Assembly (NCBI GenBank): GCA_005503085.1
Contig: SCOI01000007.1
Span: forward strand, 124,001 to 188,000
Source: Burkholderiales bacterium C2
Lineage (GTDB): Bacteria; Pseudomonadota; Gammaproteobacteria; Burkholderiales; Burkholderiaceae_C
Length of the DNA: 64,000 nt
Direction: 5' to 3'
A program made the position numbers and the translations under genes. Below, piece after piece: positions 10,243 to 19,915 of this stretch; position 1 is the first letter of the stretch; the number at the start of each line of letters is the position of its first letter. Below the pieces are notes generated by a model that worked only from the letters and a program-made list of their open reading frames with translations, made no database searches and was not told where the DNA came from.

Positions 10243-10902
10243 TCAGATCCAGCCCAGATCGATCGCCCTGAGCACCGCCTGCGTGCGGTCGCGCACGCCC
10301 ATCTTCGAGAACACCGCCGAGCAGTGGTTCTTGATCACGCCCTCGCTATTGCCCAGCAGCGCGGCGATTTCGGTGTTGCTGCGGCCGCTGGCGACCAGGC
10401 GCAGCACCTGCAGCTCCTTGGGCGAAAGCGGGTCGGGCTCGGGCGTGGCCTCGAAGCCGCGCTCCAGCTTGGCCGCGACCCGGCCCATGCGCTCGGTCAG
10501 GCCCGGGCGCAGCGCGGTGCCGCCGGCCGCGACATCGCGCAGCGCCTGCACCAGGGTCTCGGGGCTGATGGCTTTCAGCAGAAAGCCGCGCGCGCCGGCG
10601 CGCACCGCCTCGTCGAAGGCGGCCGCGTCGTCGAAGGTGGTCAGCAGCAGCACCGGGATGTTCAGCGCCCGCGCCGCCAGTGCGCGTATCAGGCCCAGGC
10701 CGTCCAGTCGCGGCATGCGCATGTCCGACAGCACCACATCGGGCAGCAGGGCCTGGGGCTGCGAGAGCAGCTCCAGCGCCTCGGCGCCATCGGCGGCCTC
10801 GCCGACGAGCTGAATTTCGGGGCTCAGCGCCAGCAGGCCTTTCAGGCCTTCGCGCACCAGCTGCTGGTCCTCGACCAGCAGCACCTTGATCGGGTTGTTC
10901 AT
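10243..10902 (-). CDS. Response regulator, NarL/LuxR family
   Basis: 219 residues from the second ATG of a TGATGATG run. Receiver domain 1-120: acidic pair E11-D12, phosphorylation site D60 (VVLSDMRMP), Thr in LLLTTFDD and Lys in GFLLKAISPE. The C-terminal LuxR-type helix-turn-helix reads LSPKELQVLRLVASGRSNTEIA and VIKNHCSAVFSKMGVRDRTQA. GAGAGG sits 7 bases before the 10902 start; the ATG at 10905 overlapping the kinase stop is the alternative. It is paired with the upstream histidine kinase. The stimulus is unknown. Confidence 0.92.
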   Translation of the reverse strand: MNNPIKVLLVEDQQLVREGLKGLLALSPEIQLVGEAADGAEALELLSQPQALLPDVVLSDMRMPRLDGLGLIRALAARALNIPVLLLTTFDDAAAFDEAVRAGARGFLLKAISPETLVQALRDVAAGGTALRPGLTERMGRVAAKLERGFEATPEPDPLSPKELQVLRLVASGRSNTEIAALLGNSEGVIKNHCSAVFSKMGVRDRTQAVLRAIDLGWI

Positions 10903-10904
10903 CA

Positions 10905-12230
10905 TCAGGCCTCTCTCGGGCAATGCAGTTCAATCATGAAGCCGGGGCTTTGGCGCCGCACCGCCATCCGTCCGCCCAGCTCCTTCATCCGCTCGGCCAT
11001 GCCTGTCAGGCCGTTGCCGGCCACCAGGCGCGCCGTGCCGCCGCCATCGTCATCGACCGTCACCGTCACGGACTCGCTGTCGGCGCTCAGCACCACCCGT
11101 ACCCGGCTGGCGCGGGCATGGCGCACGCTGTTGGTGACGGCCTCCTGCACGCAGCGCAGCAGCGCATGGGCCAGGCGCGGGCTCAGGTCGCGCGCGGCCT
11201 CGGCAATATCGAGCTCGATCCGGGTGCTGGCAATCCCCTGGGCCAGGGTCAGCAAGGCCTCGCTGAGGTCGATGCGCTGCGAGGCGCGCTCGGCCGTGAC
11301 GGCCTCGCGCACATCGGCCAGCAGCCGCTCGGCGCTGCCGCGCGCCTTCTCGACGGCCTGCGCCGCGCCTTCGGCATCGGCGCGCTGCAAGAGTGCGCCG
11401 CCCAGCTGCAGCTGCAGATTCAGCGCGGTCAGGTGGTGGCCCACGACATCGTGCAGCTCGCGGGCCATCAGCGCCCGTTCGGCATAGCGCAGCTGCTCGG
11501 CCAGCAGCCGCTCGGCGCTGAGCTTCTCGGCCAGCATGGCCTGCAGCCAGCGGCGTTTCTCGGCCTCGGCGGCGGCCATGCGGCCCAGGCCGAAGGCCAT
11601 GCCATGCAGGGCCACCATGGCCATCAGCTGGCTCAGACCGTCCAGCCACAGCGATTGGTTGGAGCGCAGCTGTTCGAGCTGCTGGCTCTCGCTGGGCAGC
11701 AGCAGATAGAGCGCCAGATTGACGACCACCTGGGCCAGCGCGAAGCCGAAGGCCGGCCGCAGCCGCAGCATCACGGCGGCCAGCGCGGTGACCAGAAAGG
11801 GCAGGCCCGGCGTGACGGCCAGCGCCAGCAGGTTCAGCACGAGGATGGCGGCCAGCGCCCGCGGCGGCGTGCGGTCGGCGCTGGCCTGACGCGCCAGCCA
11901 CCAGAAGCCGGCGGCAAACAGCAGCACCAGCGCGAAGCTGGCCAGCATCAGGCCGGTGTCGCTGGTCTGGCCGCCGCGCAGCAGGTGCAGCGAGGCCAGC
12001 GCGCCGTCATAGGGGTCGGTCTGCGGCCGCCCGCGCAGCGCCGCGACGATAGACCACAGCTCCAGCACGCAGACCGCCAGCGCCGCGACGCGCAGCACGA
12101 AGCCGGGCTGGGCAATGCGGGCGAGCAGGCGGTCCAGGGCGTTGTTCAAGAGGAAATCGGCAAAGCCGCGAGGCTGCCACAGCCTGCGGGTTTGCAGGCA
12201 GTGACTAAGGTCATGCCATCGCCTCGGCAA
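10905..12230 (-). CDS. Sensor histidine kinase, NarX/DesK type
   Basis: Up to 441 residues. About six or seven membrane helices occupy residues 45-200 ([37 protein letters not shown] and others). The phospho-acceptor segment reads [21 protein letters not shown], typical of HisKA_3 kinases, and the ATP-binding domain includes [21 protein letters not shown] and [16 protein letters not shown]. The frame has no ATG near its 5' end; the candidate starts are TTG at 12230, inside the end of mnmA, or TTG at 12149, neither with a clear ribosome site. Its stop overlaps the response-regulator start, so the two form one operon, possibly co-transcribed with mnmA. Confidence 0.85.
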
Positions 12231-13320
12231 TCACGCCGCCGCCGAGGCAGACTTCTCCGTCATACAGCACTGCGCTCTGGCCCGGCGTCACCGCCCACTG
12301 CGGCTGGGCGAAGTCCAGCCGGATGCCGCCGGGCTGCGGCGTCAGCGCGCAGGCCGCATCGGCCTGGCGGTAGCGGGTCTTGGCGCCGTAGCCACCAAAG
12401 TTGGGCATGGTGCCGGCGGTCCAGCTCAGATCATCGGCCAGCAGCGAGCGGCTTTGCAGCAGCGGGTGCTGATGGCCCTGCACGACCACCAGGGTGTTGC
12501 TGTCCAGGTCCTTGCGGGCAACGAACCAGGGTTCGTGCTCGCCACCGCCGCGCGGCGCGCCCTTCTCCTTCACGCCGCCTATGCCCAGGCCCTGGCGCTG
12601 GCCCAGAGTGTAGAAGGACAGGCCGACATGCTCGCCGAGCTTGCGGCCACGCTCGTCCTTGATAGGCCCCGGCTGCTGCGACAGATAGCGGTTCAGGAAC
12701 TCGCGGAAGGGGCGCTCGCCGATGAAGCAGATGCCGGTCGAGTCCTTCTTCTTCGCGTTCGGCAGGCCGATGGCCTCGGCGATGCGGCGCACCTCGGTCT
12801 TGGCCAGCTCGCCGACCGGGAACAGGGTCTTGGCCAGCTGGGCCTGGTTCAGCCGGTGCAGGAAGTAGCTCTGGTCTTTCAGCGGGTCCAGACCCTTGAG
12901 CAACTGGAAGGCGCCACCGACCTCCCTGACGCGCGCGTAGTGGCCGGTGGCGATCTTGTCGGCGCCCAGACGCATCGCATGGTCCAGAAAGGCCTTGAAC
13001 TTGATCTCGGCATTGCACAGCACATCGGGGTTGGGTGTGCGGCCGGCCTGGTACTCGCGCAGGAACTCGGCGAACACCCGGTCCTTGTAGTCGGCCGCGA
13101 AATTGACATGCTCGATCTCGATGCCGATCACATCGGCCACCGCCGCCGCGTCGACGAAGTCGATGTTCGACGAGCAGAACTCGCTGTCGTCATCGTCTTC
13201 CCAGTTCTTCATGAAGATGCCCACCACCTCATGGCCGGCTTGTTTCAGCAGGTGGGCGGTGACGGCGGAATCGACGCCGCCGGACAGGCCGACGACGATG
13301 CGGTGCTTTCTCTGACTCAT
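12211..13320 (-). CDS. mnmA: tRNA-specific 2-thiouridylase MnmA
   Basis: 369 residues, close to the E. coli length. It transfers sulfur to U34 of tRNA-Lys, -Glu and -Gln. Visible motifs: PP-loop [10 protein letters not shown] (residues 11-20), GIFMKNW, catalytic C102 in [13 protein letters not shown], the tRNA-contact phrase [22 protein letters not shown], and the second catalytic cysteine C198 in [12 protein letters not shown]. The start at 13320 ([10 protein letters not shown]) fits the family; an upstream in-frame ATG at 13338 does not. In many proteobacteria mnmA follows a NUDIX gene (nudJ) directly; here two opposite-strand genes separate them. Confidence 0.97.
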
Positions 13321-13469
13321 GGCCCGATTGTCCCGCAAGGGCTCGCCAGCCGCGCCGCGCAGGGTCTTCAGGCGCTACTCATCGGGCCTTCATGCGCGAG
13401 CGCGGCCGGCCCGCTAAATTTCGCCCGCTGTGCAGCAGGCCGCCGTGACGGCCCAGGGGAGAGAACATC

Positions 13470-13736
13470 ATGAATACAAGCAGCGCCTTGCGCGCGATCC
13501 TGGCCGAGGCCATGGGCATCGACACCAGCGGATTCGAGGCGAACACGCTTTTGCTGGGGGCCGTGCCCGAGCTGGACTCGATGTCGGTGATGGAGGTGGT
13601 GATGGCACTGGAACAGCGTTTCGATATCGATCTGGCCGATGAGGAGCTCGACGCCTCGGTGTTTGCCAGCTTCGGCAGCCTGGAGCGGCATCTGCGGCGC
13701 CGGCTGGCGATGGGCCGCACGGCAGTGCCGGCCTGA
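13470..13736 (+). CDS. Acyl carrier protein (stand-alone)
   Basis: 88 residues with a GGGGAGAG ribosome site. The 4'-phosphopantetheine attachment site is S37 in PELDSMSVMEVVMALE, followed by RFDIDLADEEL, a standard ACP helix II-III region. It is not the housekeeping AcpP (the sequence and the context differ: no fab genes). One base separates its stop (13736) from the ATG of the acyltransferase (13738), so the ACP likely delivers an acyl chain to, or accepts it from, that enzyme. Confidence 0.87.
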   Translation: MNTSSALRAILAEAMGIDTSGFEANTLLLGAVPELDSMSVMEVVMALEQRFDIDLADEELDASVFASFGSLERHLRRRLAMGRTAVPA

Positions 13737-13737
13737 G

Positions 13738-14583
13738 ATGGGCGCCGGCCTGATCAATCGCGCCATCGTGCTGCTGATGGGGCTGCTGGGCCGGCTGTCG
13801 GCGCGCCAGCGTCAGCGCTTTGCCGGCATCGTGGCGCCGTTGATACTGCGCTTTGCCAGGCGCACCGATGCCAGGCTGGCGGCCAATCTGGCGCTCGCGC
13901 TGCCCCAGCTCGACGCGGCGCAGCGCCGCACCCTGGCGCTGCGCTCTTATCGCAATATCTGCCTGGGCGTGCTTGACACCTTCTGGCTCGACAAGCTGCA
14001 GCTGGACATCGAGTTCAACGACAGCACCTCGCGCCGCATCATCGAGGGCGGCGGCGGGGCCAGCATCGTGACCCTGCATATGGGCTGTTACGAGGTGGTG
14101 GCGCTGGCGGTGCAGCGGCTGACGGGGCGCTCCAGCACCATGTCCAATATCCCGCCGCATCTGCAGTGCGTGAGCCGGCTCTACCAGGCGGCCGGCATAG
14201 CCTGCGTCCACAAGAGCAAGCCCGGTGGCTTCTTCGATCTGATACGTGCCGCCAAGCGCGGCGGCTATGTCACCCTGCATGGCGATCACTACGGCCGCGA
14301 TATGCCGGTCAGCTTCTTCGGCCGGGCCACCCAGGCGCCGGGCGGCGCGGTGATGCTGGCCGCGCTGGCCAGCAAGCCGCTGTTGCTGGGCTATGCGGTG
14401 CTCAGCGAGGCCGGCCGCTACCGCGTGGTCTTCGAGACCCTGGTCGAGCACCCGCTGCCGCGCCAACCGGCCGAGCTGGCATGGGCGATGGGGCGGGTCT
14501 ACCGGCGTTTCGAGCAGGTGATACGCCAGCACCCCGAGCACTGGTACTGGTCCTACAAGCGCTGGCGCACGCCCGCTACTTGA
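13738..14583 (+). CDS. LpxL/HtrB-like lipid acyltransferase
   Basis: 281 residues. It contains the lysophospholipid-acyltransferase signature H-x4-E (H114 to E119 in VTLHMGCYEV), a hydrophobic N-terminus, and later GGYVTLHGDHYGRDMPVSFFG and APGGAVMLAALASKPLL, which match the bacterial lipid A acyltransferase family (LpxL/LpxM). The C-terminus, RQHPEHWYWSYKRW, is also typical. Directly coupled to a dedicated ACP, it may acylate a special membrane lipid or glycolipid rather than lipid A itself; that is inference. It converges with the NUDIX gene, overlapping it by 8 bases. Confidence 0.8.
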   Translation: MGAGLINRAIVLLMGLLGRLSARQRQRFAGIVAPLILRFARRTDARLAANLALALPQLDAAQRRTLALRSYRNICLGVLDTFWLDKLQLDIEFNDSTSRRIIEGGGGASIVTLHMGCYEVVALAVQRLTGRSSTMSNIPPHLQCVSRLYQAAGIACVHKSKPGGFFDLIRAAKRGGYVTLHGDHYGRDMPVSFFGRATQAPGGAVMLAALASKPLLLGYAVLSEAGRYRVVFETLVEHPLPRQPAELAWAMGRVYRRFEQVIRQHPEHWYWSYKRWRTPAT

Positions 14584-15082
14584 TCTCCGGCCTGAACAGG
14601 CTGTCGTCGGCCTGTATCAGGTCCAGCGGCAGGCGCCGCCCGGCCCGGTGGTCCTGCAGGCACTGCCAGACCAGCGGGCTGCGCAAGCGGCCGGCCGCGC
14701 GCGCGGCCGCGATCTCGTCCGGGCTCAGCCACAGCCAGCGCACGATGCCCTCGTCCAGCGCCAGCCCGGGCACCGGTCCCTCGCCTTCGATGCCGCCGCA
14801 GTAGGCGATGCGCAGATAGGTCACATCCTCGGCCGTGTTGGGACGCTGGAAGCGCGACATATACAGGCCCAGCAAGGCCTCGGGCCGGAAGTGGTGGGCC
14901 GTTTCCTCCAGCGCCTCGCGCAGCACGCCCTGCAGCGGCGTCTCGCCCTGCTCCAGATGGCCGGCCGGGTTGTTGAGCTTGAGCCCCTCGGGCGTGTGCT
15001 CCTCGACCAGCAGATACAGGCCCGCGCGCTCGATGATGGCGGCGACGGTGACCGAGGGTTTGAAGCGCTGCGCGACTGGCAT
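14576..15082 (-). CDS. NUDIX hydrolase (NudJ-like phosphatase)
   Basis: 168 residues from ATG 15082 (MPVAQRFKPSVTVAAII). The NUDIX box is complete: G41, E47, R55-E56, E59-E60 in the order G-x5-E-x7-RE-x2-EE. The N-terminal phrase and the C-terminal DEGIVRWLWLSPDEI resemble NudJ, a thiamin-pyrophosphate/nucleoside-triphosphate pyrophosphohydrolase encoded next to mnmA in many proteobacteria. Here it has the same strand and order as that ancestral pair, but 1.2 kb of opposite-strand genes lies between. Its last 8 bases overlap the end of the acyltransferase gene. Confidence 0.85.
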   Translation of the reverse strand: MPVAQRFKPSVTVAAIIERAGLYLLVEEHTPEGLKLNNPAGHLEQGETPLQGVLREALEETAHHFRPEALLGLYMSRFQRPNTAEDVTYLRIAYCGGIEGEGPVPGLALDEGIVRWLWLSPDEIAAARAAGRLRSPLVWQCLQDHRAGRRLPLDLIQADDSLFRPEIK

Positions 15083-18107: not shown

Positions 18108-18241
18108 ACAAGCAGCGGGCGCGAGCCCCACAACAGTGCCCGACGACACCAGATCGGGCACCCCGCGCACCGCTATCGAATCCCCTGATGCTGGCGCCAG
18201 CCGGCATCGGAGAGAATCGCGGGCGCGACATGGAGACATTG

Positions 18242-19915
18242 ATGGAGAAGATTTGGCTCAAGAACTACCCGGCCGGCGTGCCGGCGGACATCAATGCGGA
18301 CCTGTATCCGTCCTTGGTGGACCTGATGGAGGGGGCGTTCAAGAAGTACCCGCAACAGCCGGCCTACAAAATGCTGGGCCGCGCCATCAGCTTTGGCGAG
18401 ATCGATGAAGCCTCGCGCGCGCTGGCTGCCTACTTCCAGAGCCTGGGCCTGGAGAAGGGTGATCGCGTCGCGCTGATGATGCCCAATGTGATGCAGTACC
18501 CGGTGGCCGTGGCCGCCGTGCTGCGCGCCGGCCTGGTGGTGGTCAACGTCAACCCGCTGTACACGCCGCGCGAGTTGGAACATCAGCTCAAGGACGCGGG
18601 CGCCAAGGCCATCGTGATCCTGGAGAACTTTGCCGCCACCTTGCAGCAGTGCCTCAATGGGGTGCCGACCAAGCACATCGTGCTGGCCTCGATGGGCGAA
18701 ATGCTGGGCTTCCCCAAGGGCCTGATCGTCAACTACGTCGTGCGCAAGGTGAAGAAGCTGGTGCCGCCCTATGAGCTGCCCGGCGCGGTGCGCTTCAACG
18801 ACGCGGTGGCCAAGGGGCGCGGCCTGAGCTACAAGGCGCCCAAGGTGGCCGGTGGCGATATCGCGGTGCTGCAGTACACCGGCGGCACGACCGGCGTGTC
18901 CAAGGGCGCGGTGCTGCTGCACCGCAATCTGGTGGCCAATACCTTGCAGGCCGAGGCCTGGTATCAGCCGGCGCTCAAGAAGGTGCCGCAGGGCGAGCAG
19001 CTGATGAGCGTCTGCGCGCTGCCGCTGTATCACATCTTCGGCTTCACGACCAACATGATGCTGTCCATGCATGTGGGCGGCTGCAACATCCTGATCCCGA
19101 ATCCGCGCGATCTGCCGGCCGTGTTCAAGGAGCTGTCCAAGCACCGCTTCCACAGCCTGCCGGCGGTCAACACCCTGTTCCTGGCGATGGCCAACCATGC
19201 CGAGTTCAACACGGTGGACTGGAGCGGTCTGGTGATCTCGGTCGGCGGCGGCATGGCGGTGCAGCAGGCCACGGCCAAGCTGTGGCTGGAGAAGACCGGC
19301 TGCCCCATCGTCGAGGGCTATGGCCTGTCCGAGACCTCGCCGGTGGCCAGCTGCAACCCGACCGACAGCAGCACCTACACCGGCTCCATCGGCCTGCCCC
19401 TGCCCAGCACCGAGCTGTGCCTGCTCGATGACGAGGGCAAGGAGGTCGCCGCGGGCGCCAGCGGCGAGATCGCGATCCGCGGCCCGCAGGTGATGGCCGG
19501 CTACTGGCAGCGCCCGGACGAGACCGCCAAGGTGATGACGGCCGATGGCTTCTTCCGCACCGGCGATATCGGCACGGTGGACGAGCGCGGCTTCTTCCGC
19601 ATCGTTGATCGCAAGAAGGACATGATTCTGGTCAGCGGCTTCAACGTCTATCCGAACGAGATCGAGGACGTGATCACGCAGATGGACGGGGTGCTGGAGG
19701 CCGCGGCGGTCGGCGTGCCCGATGCGAAAGCCGGCGAGGCGGTCAAGGTGGTCATCGTCAAGAAGAATCCGGCGCTCAGCGAGGCCGATGTGCGCGCCTA
19801 CTGCGAGGCCAATCTGACCGGCTACAAGCGGCCCAAGGTGGTGGAGTTCCGCACCGAGCTGCCCAAGACACCGGTCGGCAAGATACTCCGGCGTGAATTA
19901 CGCGACAAGAAGTGA
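18242..19915 (+). CDS. fadD: Long-chain-fatty-acid--CoA ligase
   Basis: 557 residues, the size of E. coli FadD. It activates free fatty acids to acyl-CoA via an acyl-adenylate. Motifs: the ATP P-loop YTGGTTGVSKGAV (about residue 215), GYGLSETSPVAS, the adenylation hinge DRKKDMILVSGFNVYPNEIE and the C-terminal lysine in TPVGKILRRELR. A GGAG six bases before 18242 decides this start; 18230 is an in-frame alternative. It lies 134 bases behind pntB on the same strand, perhaps with its own promoter. Confidence 0.94.
   Translation: MEKIWLKNYPAGVPADINADLYPSLVDLMEGAFKKYPQQPAYKMLGRAISFGEIDEASRALAAYFQSLGLEKGDRVALMMPNVMQYPVAVAAVLRAGLVVVNVNPLYTPRELEHQLKDAGAKAIVILENFAATLQQCLNGVPTKHIVLASMGEMLGFPKGLIVNYVVRKVKKLVPPYELPGAVRFNDAVAKGRGLSYKAPKVAGGDIAVLQYTGGTTGVSKGAVLLHRNLVANTLQAEAWYQPALKKVPQGEQLMSVCALPLYHIFGFTTNMMLSMHVGGCNILIPNPRDLPAVFKELSKHRFHSLPAVNTLFLAMANHAEFNTVDWSGLVISVGGGMAVQQATAKLWLEKTGCPIVEGYGLSETSPVASCNPTDSSTYTGSIGLPLPSTELCLLDDEGKEVAAGASGEIAIRGPQVMAGYWQRPDETAKVMTADGFFRTGDIGTVDERGFFRIVDRKKDMILVSGFNVYPNEIEDVITQMDGVLEAAAVGVPDAKAGEAVKVVIVKKNPALSEADVRAYCEANLTGYKRPKVVEFRTELPKTPVGKILRRELRDKK

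Follow-up and report, generated by a model that had tools for sequence, protein, structure and literature searches.

An acyl carrier protein and LpxL-family acyltransferase gene pair inserted between nudix and mnmA in two related Burkholderiales genera: a candidate module for accessory lipid acylation

In the present work we analysed a 64,000-nucleotide stretch of Burkholderiales bacterium C2 (hereafter the window; GenBank assembly GCA_005503085.1, contig SCOI01000007.1, positions 124,001 to 188,000 of the forward strand). Within it, a stand-alone acyl carrier protein (ACP) gene and an LpxL-family acyltransferase gene lie, on the opposite strand, between a Nudix hydrolase gene and mnmA, where they constitute an insertion. 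We lean toward a reading of the two genes as a dedicated acyl-ACP-to-lipid acyltransferase module involved in an accessory lipid modification, with the pairing of the two proteins, the donor and the acceptor all putative. The pair and its flanks are as follows:

13470-13736, + strand: stand-alone acyl carrier protein gene, 88 amino acids (PF00550, 32.8 bits against a cut-off of 20.8; attachment serine in PELDSM)
13738-14583, + strand: LpxL/LpxM/PatA-family acyltransferase gene (PF03279, 58.6 bits against 22.3; H114-x4-E119 kept; AlphaFold, Foldseek)
12211-13320, - strand: mnmA, left flank of the insertion (MnmA equivalog NF001138, 458.8 bits against a cut-off of 284)
14576-15082, - strand: Nudix hydrolase gene, right flank of the insertion (PF00293)

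Open reading frames, Pfam and NCBIfam agree with the original prediction, made from the letters of this stretch, on the coordinates and strands of the four genes, on the single base that separates the ACP stop from the acyltransferase ATG and on the 8-base overlap between the acyltransferase and Nudix stops (14576-14583). The acyltransferase length of 281 amino acids is counted from the first ATG after the ACP gene, the form that was also modelled. No NCBIfam Nudix model was reached at cut-off by the Nudix protein (best 26.5 bits against 200), so that the predicted NudJ-like identity is backed here to the level of NUDIX.

The acyltransferase was searched in 399 evenly drawn genomes of the same family, with up to six candidates per genome scored in this and in the order and phylum searches, so that misses are possible. 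Some match at 1e-3 was found in 330 genomes. Six matches stand apart, all at 1.4e-71 or below: the window genome itself, G001 (93% identity), G257 (61%), G076 (58%), G180 (57%) and G149 (45%); the next one falls at 5.4e-13 with 26% identity, typical of ordinary LpxL relatives. At 1e-40, one of 399 order genomes and one of 398 phylum genomes matched, both times the window's own genome. A near-exact peptide-word scan of genome contigs matched two relatives and missed G257 and G076. The carriers of the pair are the window genome, G001, G257, G076 and G180, that is, 2/2 and 3/3 of the sampled genomes of two related genera, and the gene order is the same in all five: mnmA, ACP, acyltransferase, nudix and three transhydrogenase (pnt) genes, the latter named by NCBIfam. 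The G149 homologue (43-45% identity) is found at a different genomic place, without an adjoining ACP gene, and in one of the six genomes of its genus.

On the side of the flanking genes, mnmA was found in 178 of 200 family genomes, and the 30 best loci were taken with up to 1.5 kb on each side. Four of them belong to carriers. Within the flanks of the other 26 there is no such ACP or acyltransferase, and none of these 26 genomes comes near the six top acyltransferase matches. G001 shows no ACP within its mnmA flank because a later insert parts the ACP from mnmA; this insert (L046:10824-13566) encodes a PEP-CTERM-motif protein and a GHL10 glycosyl-hydrolase-like protein. Empty sites are seen in ten of the 26 non-carriers, in which nudix lies directly at mnmA with 35-66 bp between match ends, while the nudix-mnmA interval spans 432-1277 bp in nine and no nudix was seen in seven. 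The nine filled intervals (L058, L061, L068, L069, L071, L072, L075, L076 and L079) hold other reading frames: Pfam on eight of them gave a 2OG-Fe(II) oxygenase (two), a FAS1-like dehydratase, DUF4440/SnoaL, a ketopantoate reductase and three without a match, and the ninth, L069, was judged by eye. The simplest reading is that in other lineages the slot has been filled by other genes.

A tree built on MnmA, the neighbouring histidine kinase and Nudix places the five carriers apart from 13 others on a branch with support 100/99, in an analysis whose genes are the flanks of the insertion, whose deeper forks are weak and in which G180 fills 45% of the columns. The tree of MnmA alone does not unite the carriers, requiring two changes on the best tree, with a single group not rejected (p-AU 0.13). 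Taken together, the empty sites, the grouping of the carriers on the flanking-gene tree and an arrangement that is far from universal (none of the 26 other mnmA loci has the four-gene order that might have been general in Burkholderiales) lead us to conclude that the pair is an insertion between nudix and mnmA, as had been proposed. The simplest reading is a single event in the common ancestor of the two genera. The 8-base overlap with nudix, which had been taken as the mark of a clean insertion, does not serve as such: it measures 8 bases in the window, 11 in G001, 87 in G257 and 114 in both G076 and G180, and therefore reflects the positions of stop codons and not an insertion scar. The base composition does not point to a recent foreign origin, with a GC content of 65.2% for the ACP gene, 68.6% for the acyltransferase gene and 68.0% for the window, and a third-position GC of 0.84 and 0.89, respectively, against a mean of 0.85 in 42 script-picked open reading frames. 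Plasmid carriage was also discarded, on a single match of 24% identity in 72,556 records.

The two genes adjoin in all five carriers. In the window genome and in G001 a single base separates them; in G257 and G180 the acyltransferase start overlaps the ACP stop. The G076 start is not fixed, with one in-frame ATG overlapping the ACP gene end. Upstream of the ACP gene there is a conserved element:

13362-13382, + strand: GGGTCTTCANNNGCTACTCAT, candidate promoter or regulator site upstream of the ACP gene

The element is exact in four of the five carriers, with one exact copy in each of these genomes, and has four mismatches in G180; no copy with up to three mismatches occurs in the 26 non-carrier mnmA loci. 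It lies equally near the divergent mnmA in four carriers, and in G001 it stays with the ACP gene, the insert separating mnmA. In this regard, it may be the promoter or a regulator site of the pair. A regulon sharing the element was considered and rejected, since 21 sites at up to three mismatches were counted in the five genomes against 17 for the reversed pattern, and the exact copies at the pair locus alone stand out. Neither a sigma-70 consensus promoter nor a terminator was found at the pair.

The acyltransferase belongs to PF03279 and yet reaches no curated NCBIfam LpxL/LpxM cut-off (best 61.8 bits against 281 for NF006487; 31.0 against 297.8 for TIGR02207). In alignments, the H-x4-E motif (HMGCYE) is kept in 6/6 homologues, and its glutamate corresponds in alignment to the position substituted by alanine in the Acinetobacter baumannii LpxM entry 5knk, titled 'catalytic residue substitution (E127A)'. 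An AlphaFold model (pLDDT 86.8, six sequences) gave LpxM (5kn7) as the best Foldseek match, with an E-value of 7.7e-13, followed by mycobacterial PatA; VIA-align resulted in a tie between LpxM (Z 20.7, rmsd 5.1 over 254 residues) and PatA (Z 20.9, rmsd 3.2 over 230). Two more PF03279 genes form a tandem next to metK elsewhere in the window genome, on contig 33; their products (one taken without its first residues) are 20-24% identical to the enzyme of the pair. The latter is therefore additional, and the concern that it might be the sole LpxL homologue of the genome is set aside. The enzyme thus resembles the LpxL/LpxM late acyltransferases in predicted fold and in its H-x4-E dyad, and differs from them in scoring under all curated cut-offs, in being encoded with an ACP and in adding to an LpxL-family tandem. 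Between the window genome and G001, its dN/dS is 0.11.

An LpxL-family enzyme encoded together with a special ACP recalls the rhizobial AcpXL/LpxXL system, which places a very-long-chain fatty acid on lipid A. Accordingly, the pair could consist of a lipid A late acyltransferase and a specialised ACP on which an unusual long or modified chain is built; lipid A would then receive that chain as a secondary one, either extra or alternative. We regard this as possible, at a tentative level: the logic of a special ACP with an LpxL-family enzyme is the same and LpxM is the best Foldseek match, whereas the enzyme is 20-24% identical to the two LpxL-family proteins of the genome and far under every NCBIfam lipid A cut-off. 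The Agrobacterium cluster (PMC11901934) has fabZXL, fabF2XL, fabF1XL and adhlA2XL between the special ACP and the LpxL-family gene. None of these chain-building genes stands beside the pair, in which two genes are found alone and whose neighbours are mnmA, nudix, transhydrogenase subunits, a fatty-acid--CoA ligase and two-component genes; this comparison concerns gene content and not the AcpXL sequence.

The ACP keeps the PELDSM serine motif in all five carriers. With a profile built from the five pair ACPs we searched 150 family genomes (up to 35 candidates per genome scored, so that misses may occur) and obtained, at 1e-9 or below, 41 places in 37 genomes, corresponding to the three sampled pair ACPs and 38 others. 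AcpP is expected in every genome; the window genome's AcpP is absent from these matches, and 113 genomes have no place at all. We examined 31 of the 38 non-pair places (27 fetched loci, the window genome's own and three adjoining a TIGR03098 ligase in G001, G076 and G008), and in 30 of them a homologue of the exosortase-A ligase, hydrolase or both lies beside the ACP, the exception being L097, with neither. In the window genome, the exosortase-A-type ACP is located on contig 11 at 177908, next to a ligase (TIGR03098, 778.8 bits against 592.35) and a hydrolase (TIGR03101, 293.5 against 202.75). The pair ACP is 39% identical to it over 82 positions (61.2 bits), and 41% identical to AcpP of the same genome over 56 positions (35.8 bits); with exosortase-A ACPs it shares an LLGA-x-PELDSM-x-V stretch.

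In line with this, the ACP tree gathers 28 rows taken as exosortase-A ACPs (L097 among them, though without a seen ligase or hydrolase homologue) into one group with support 99/97, and the pair ACPs fall beside this group and not within it. A branch with support 95/86, in a tree with long branches, parts the pair and exosortase-A ACPs from three other ACPs of the window genome; the tree does not settle whether the pair ACPs form a unit of their own. Judging from sequence similarity, the nearest relatives of the pair ACP appear to be the ACPs of exosortase-A (PEP-CTERM) clusters, with AcpP more distant, and the pair ACP would be a relative lying outside their group. This affinity is a new observation, absent from the original prediction. 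The latter's notion of a dedicated ACP gains plausibility from the adjacency in 5/5 carriers and from an ACP closer to another ACP class than to AcpP, with the pairing itself kept as a proposal. Two other ACP genes of the window genome may be mentioned here: one on contig 30 (L051:6380-6619), matching the phage ACP family phrog_5934 on a contig of 12.7 kb with phage-type single-strand annealing protein and exonuclease genes, and one on contig 11, in a cluster (L049:4836-12715) that by eye includes an AMP ligase, a ketosynthase-like protein, an FkbH-like protein and a short-chain dehydrogenase/reductase (SDR) and whose product may be an acylated sugar or something similar.

One idea raised by this ACP affinity is that the pair serves the exosortase-A/PEP-CTERM system as an accessory arm, in which the ACP would be loaded by the genome's TIGR03098 ligase, or would be given the group presumed to sit on the system's own ACP, and the LpxL-family enzyme would move that group to a membrane lipid. 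We consider this rather unlikely. The closest ACPs are those of exosortase-A clusters, but the pair ACP itself has no adjoining TIGR03098 ligase or TIGR03101 hydrolase. Co-occurrence was rejected as evidence: the TIGR03098 ligase is present in 5/5 carriers, but also in G149 and in 3/3 near non-carriers, and since near genomes without the pair have the ligase as well, the affinity of the ACP shows no functional tie. If this reading were true, the product of that system's ACP and ligase would be reachable via a two-gene knockout. We know of no explanation for the presence of an ACP, a ligase and hydrolases in exosortase-A clusters, and the affinity described here offers a concrete handle on it.

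The reading that we favour, a dedicated module for accessory lipid acylation, can be laid out in steps. The two genes would be translationally coupled and jointly expressed. The ACP would be activated by phosphopantetheinylation at the PELDSM serine and subsequently loaded with an acyl group. The membrane-bound LpxL-family enzyme would then dock on the ACP and, by means of its His-x4-Glu dyad, acylate a membrane lipid on a hydroxyl, at the cytoplasmic face of the membrane, the nature of both the donor group and the acceptor lipid being left general in this scheme. The arrival of the module between nudix and mnmA would, on the simplest account, be a single event in the ancestor of the two related genera. 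Given that the genome encodes LpxL-family enzymes at another place as well and that the module was found in no more than a small group, what it makes is probably an accessory lipid, or else lipid A with an accessory chain; a special acyl chain or a lipid other than lipid A, as suggested in the original prediction, may be involved. A dedicated carrier with an LpxL-type transferase would, by analogy with AcpXL/LpxXL and AlmF/AlmG, already be known in kind; in a partial literature search, no such pair was described in titles or abstract openings. Aryl polyene clusters were considered as well, and the literature search in that direction gave no paper.

Several observations weigh against this proposal. 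The G149 homologue has no adjoining ACP, and a dedicated carrier is therefore not a necessity for this enzyme. Of the two proteins of the pair, the ACP evolves more rapidly: in the two nearest genomes it is 81% identical, the acyltransferase 93%, and the dN/dS of the ACP is 0.46 for these two and 0.29-0.94 for the other nine pairs; that of the acyltransferase reaches 0.41-0.66 in wider pairs (more distant carriers and G149). In addition, the genes directly flanking the pair include no loading enzyme, and the closest ligase is the following:

18230-19915: fatty-acid--CoA ligase (NF005463, 933.8 bits against 869), about 3.6 kb from the pair, past the pnt genes

This ligase is found past the pnt genes in four of the five carriers, and not in the examined stretch of G180. 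It is an ordinary enzyme, and any tie to the pair would be hypothetical.

Some of these points could instead be accommodated if the two genes arrived together and yet form no donor-enzyme pair, the transferase using AcpP or acyl-CoA and the ACP acting as a second copy in the exosortase-A pathway. The G149 homologue without an ACP, the different rates of change of the two proteins, the resemblance of the ACP to exosortase-A ACPs and the PatA structure, which according to its entry title contains S-hexadecyl coenzyme A, are all in favour; the junction of the two genes, with stop and start overlapping or a single base from each other in both genera, is not, and we hold this explanation to be unlikely.

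AlmG of Vibrio, the transferase of the AlmE-AlmF-AlmG system, is LpxL-related. AlmG works with a carrier of its own, AlmF, in adding glycine to lipid A, and the system also has AlmE (PMC4790380), so that, likened by description and not by sequence (a carrier protein with a lipid-acting transferase), the pair might hold an amino acid on its carrier and place it on lipid A or another lipid; we find this very improbable, as the direct neighbours are mnmA and nudix and not an AlmE-like gene, and the ligase 3.6 kb off is a fatty-acid--CoA ligase.

Beyond the insertion, on the far side of mnmA, the window encodes a two-component pair adjoining mnmA (10243-12230):

10905-12230, - strand: sensor histidine kinase (HisKA_3; Pfam)
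10243-10923, - strand: LuxR-type response regulator (Pfam)

A homologue of the kinase is next to mnmA in 16 of the 30 mnmA loci, in both carriers and non-carriers, and tblastn found neither the kinase nor the regulator gene in 19.8 kb around mnmA of G180.

If the ACP and the acyltransferase are indeed a dedicated donor-transferase couple, they would represent a minimal two-gene lipid acylation module and would point the way to a lipid modification of Paucibacter-like bacteria not yet described.

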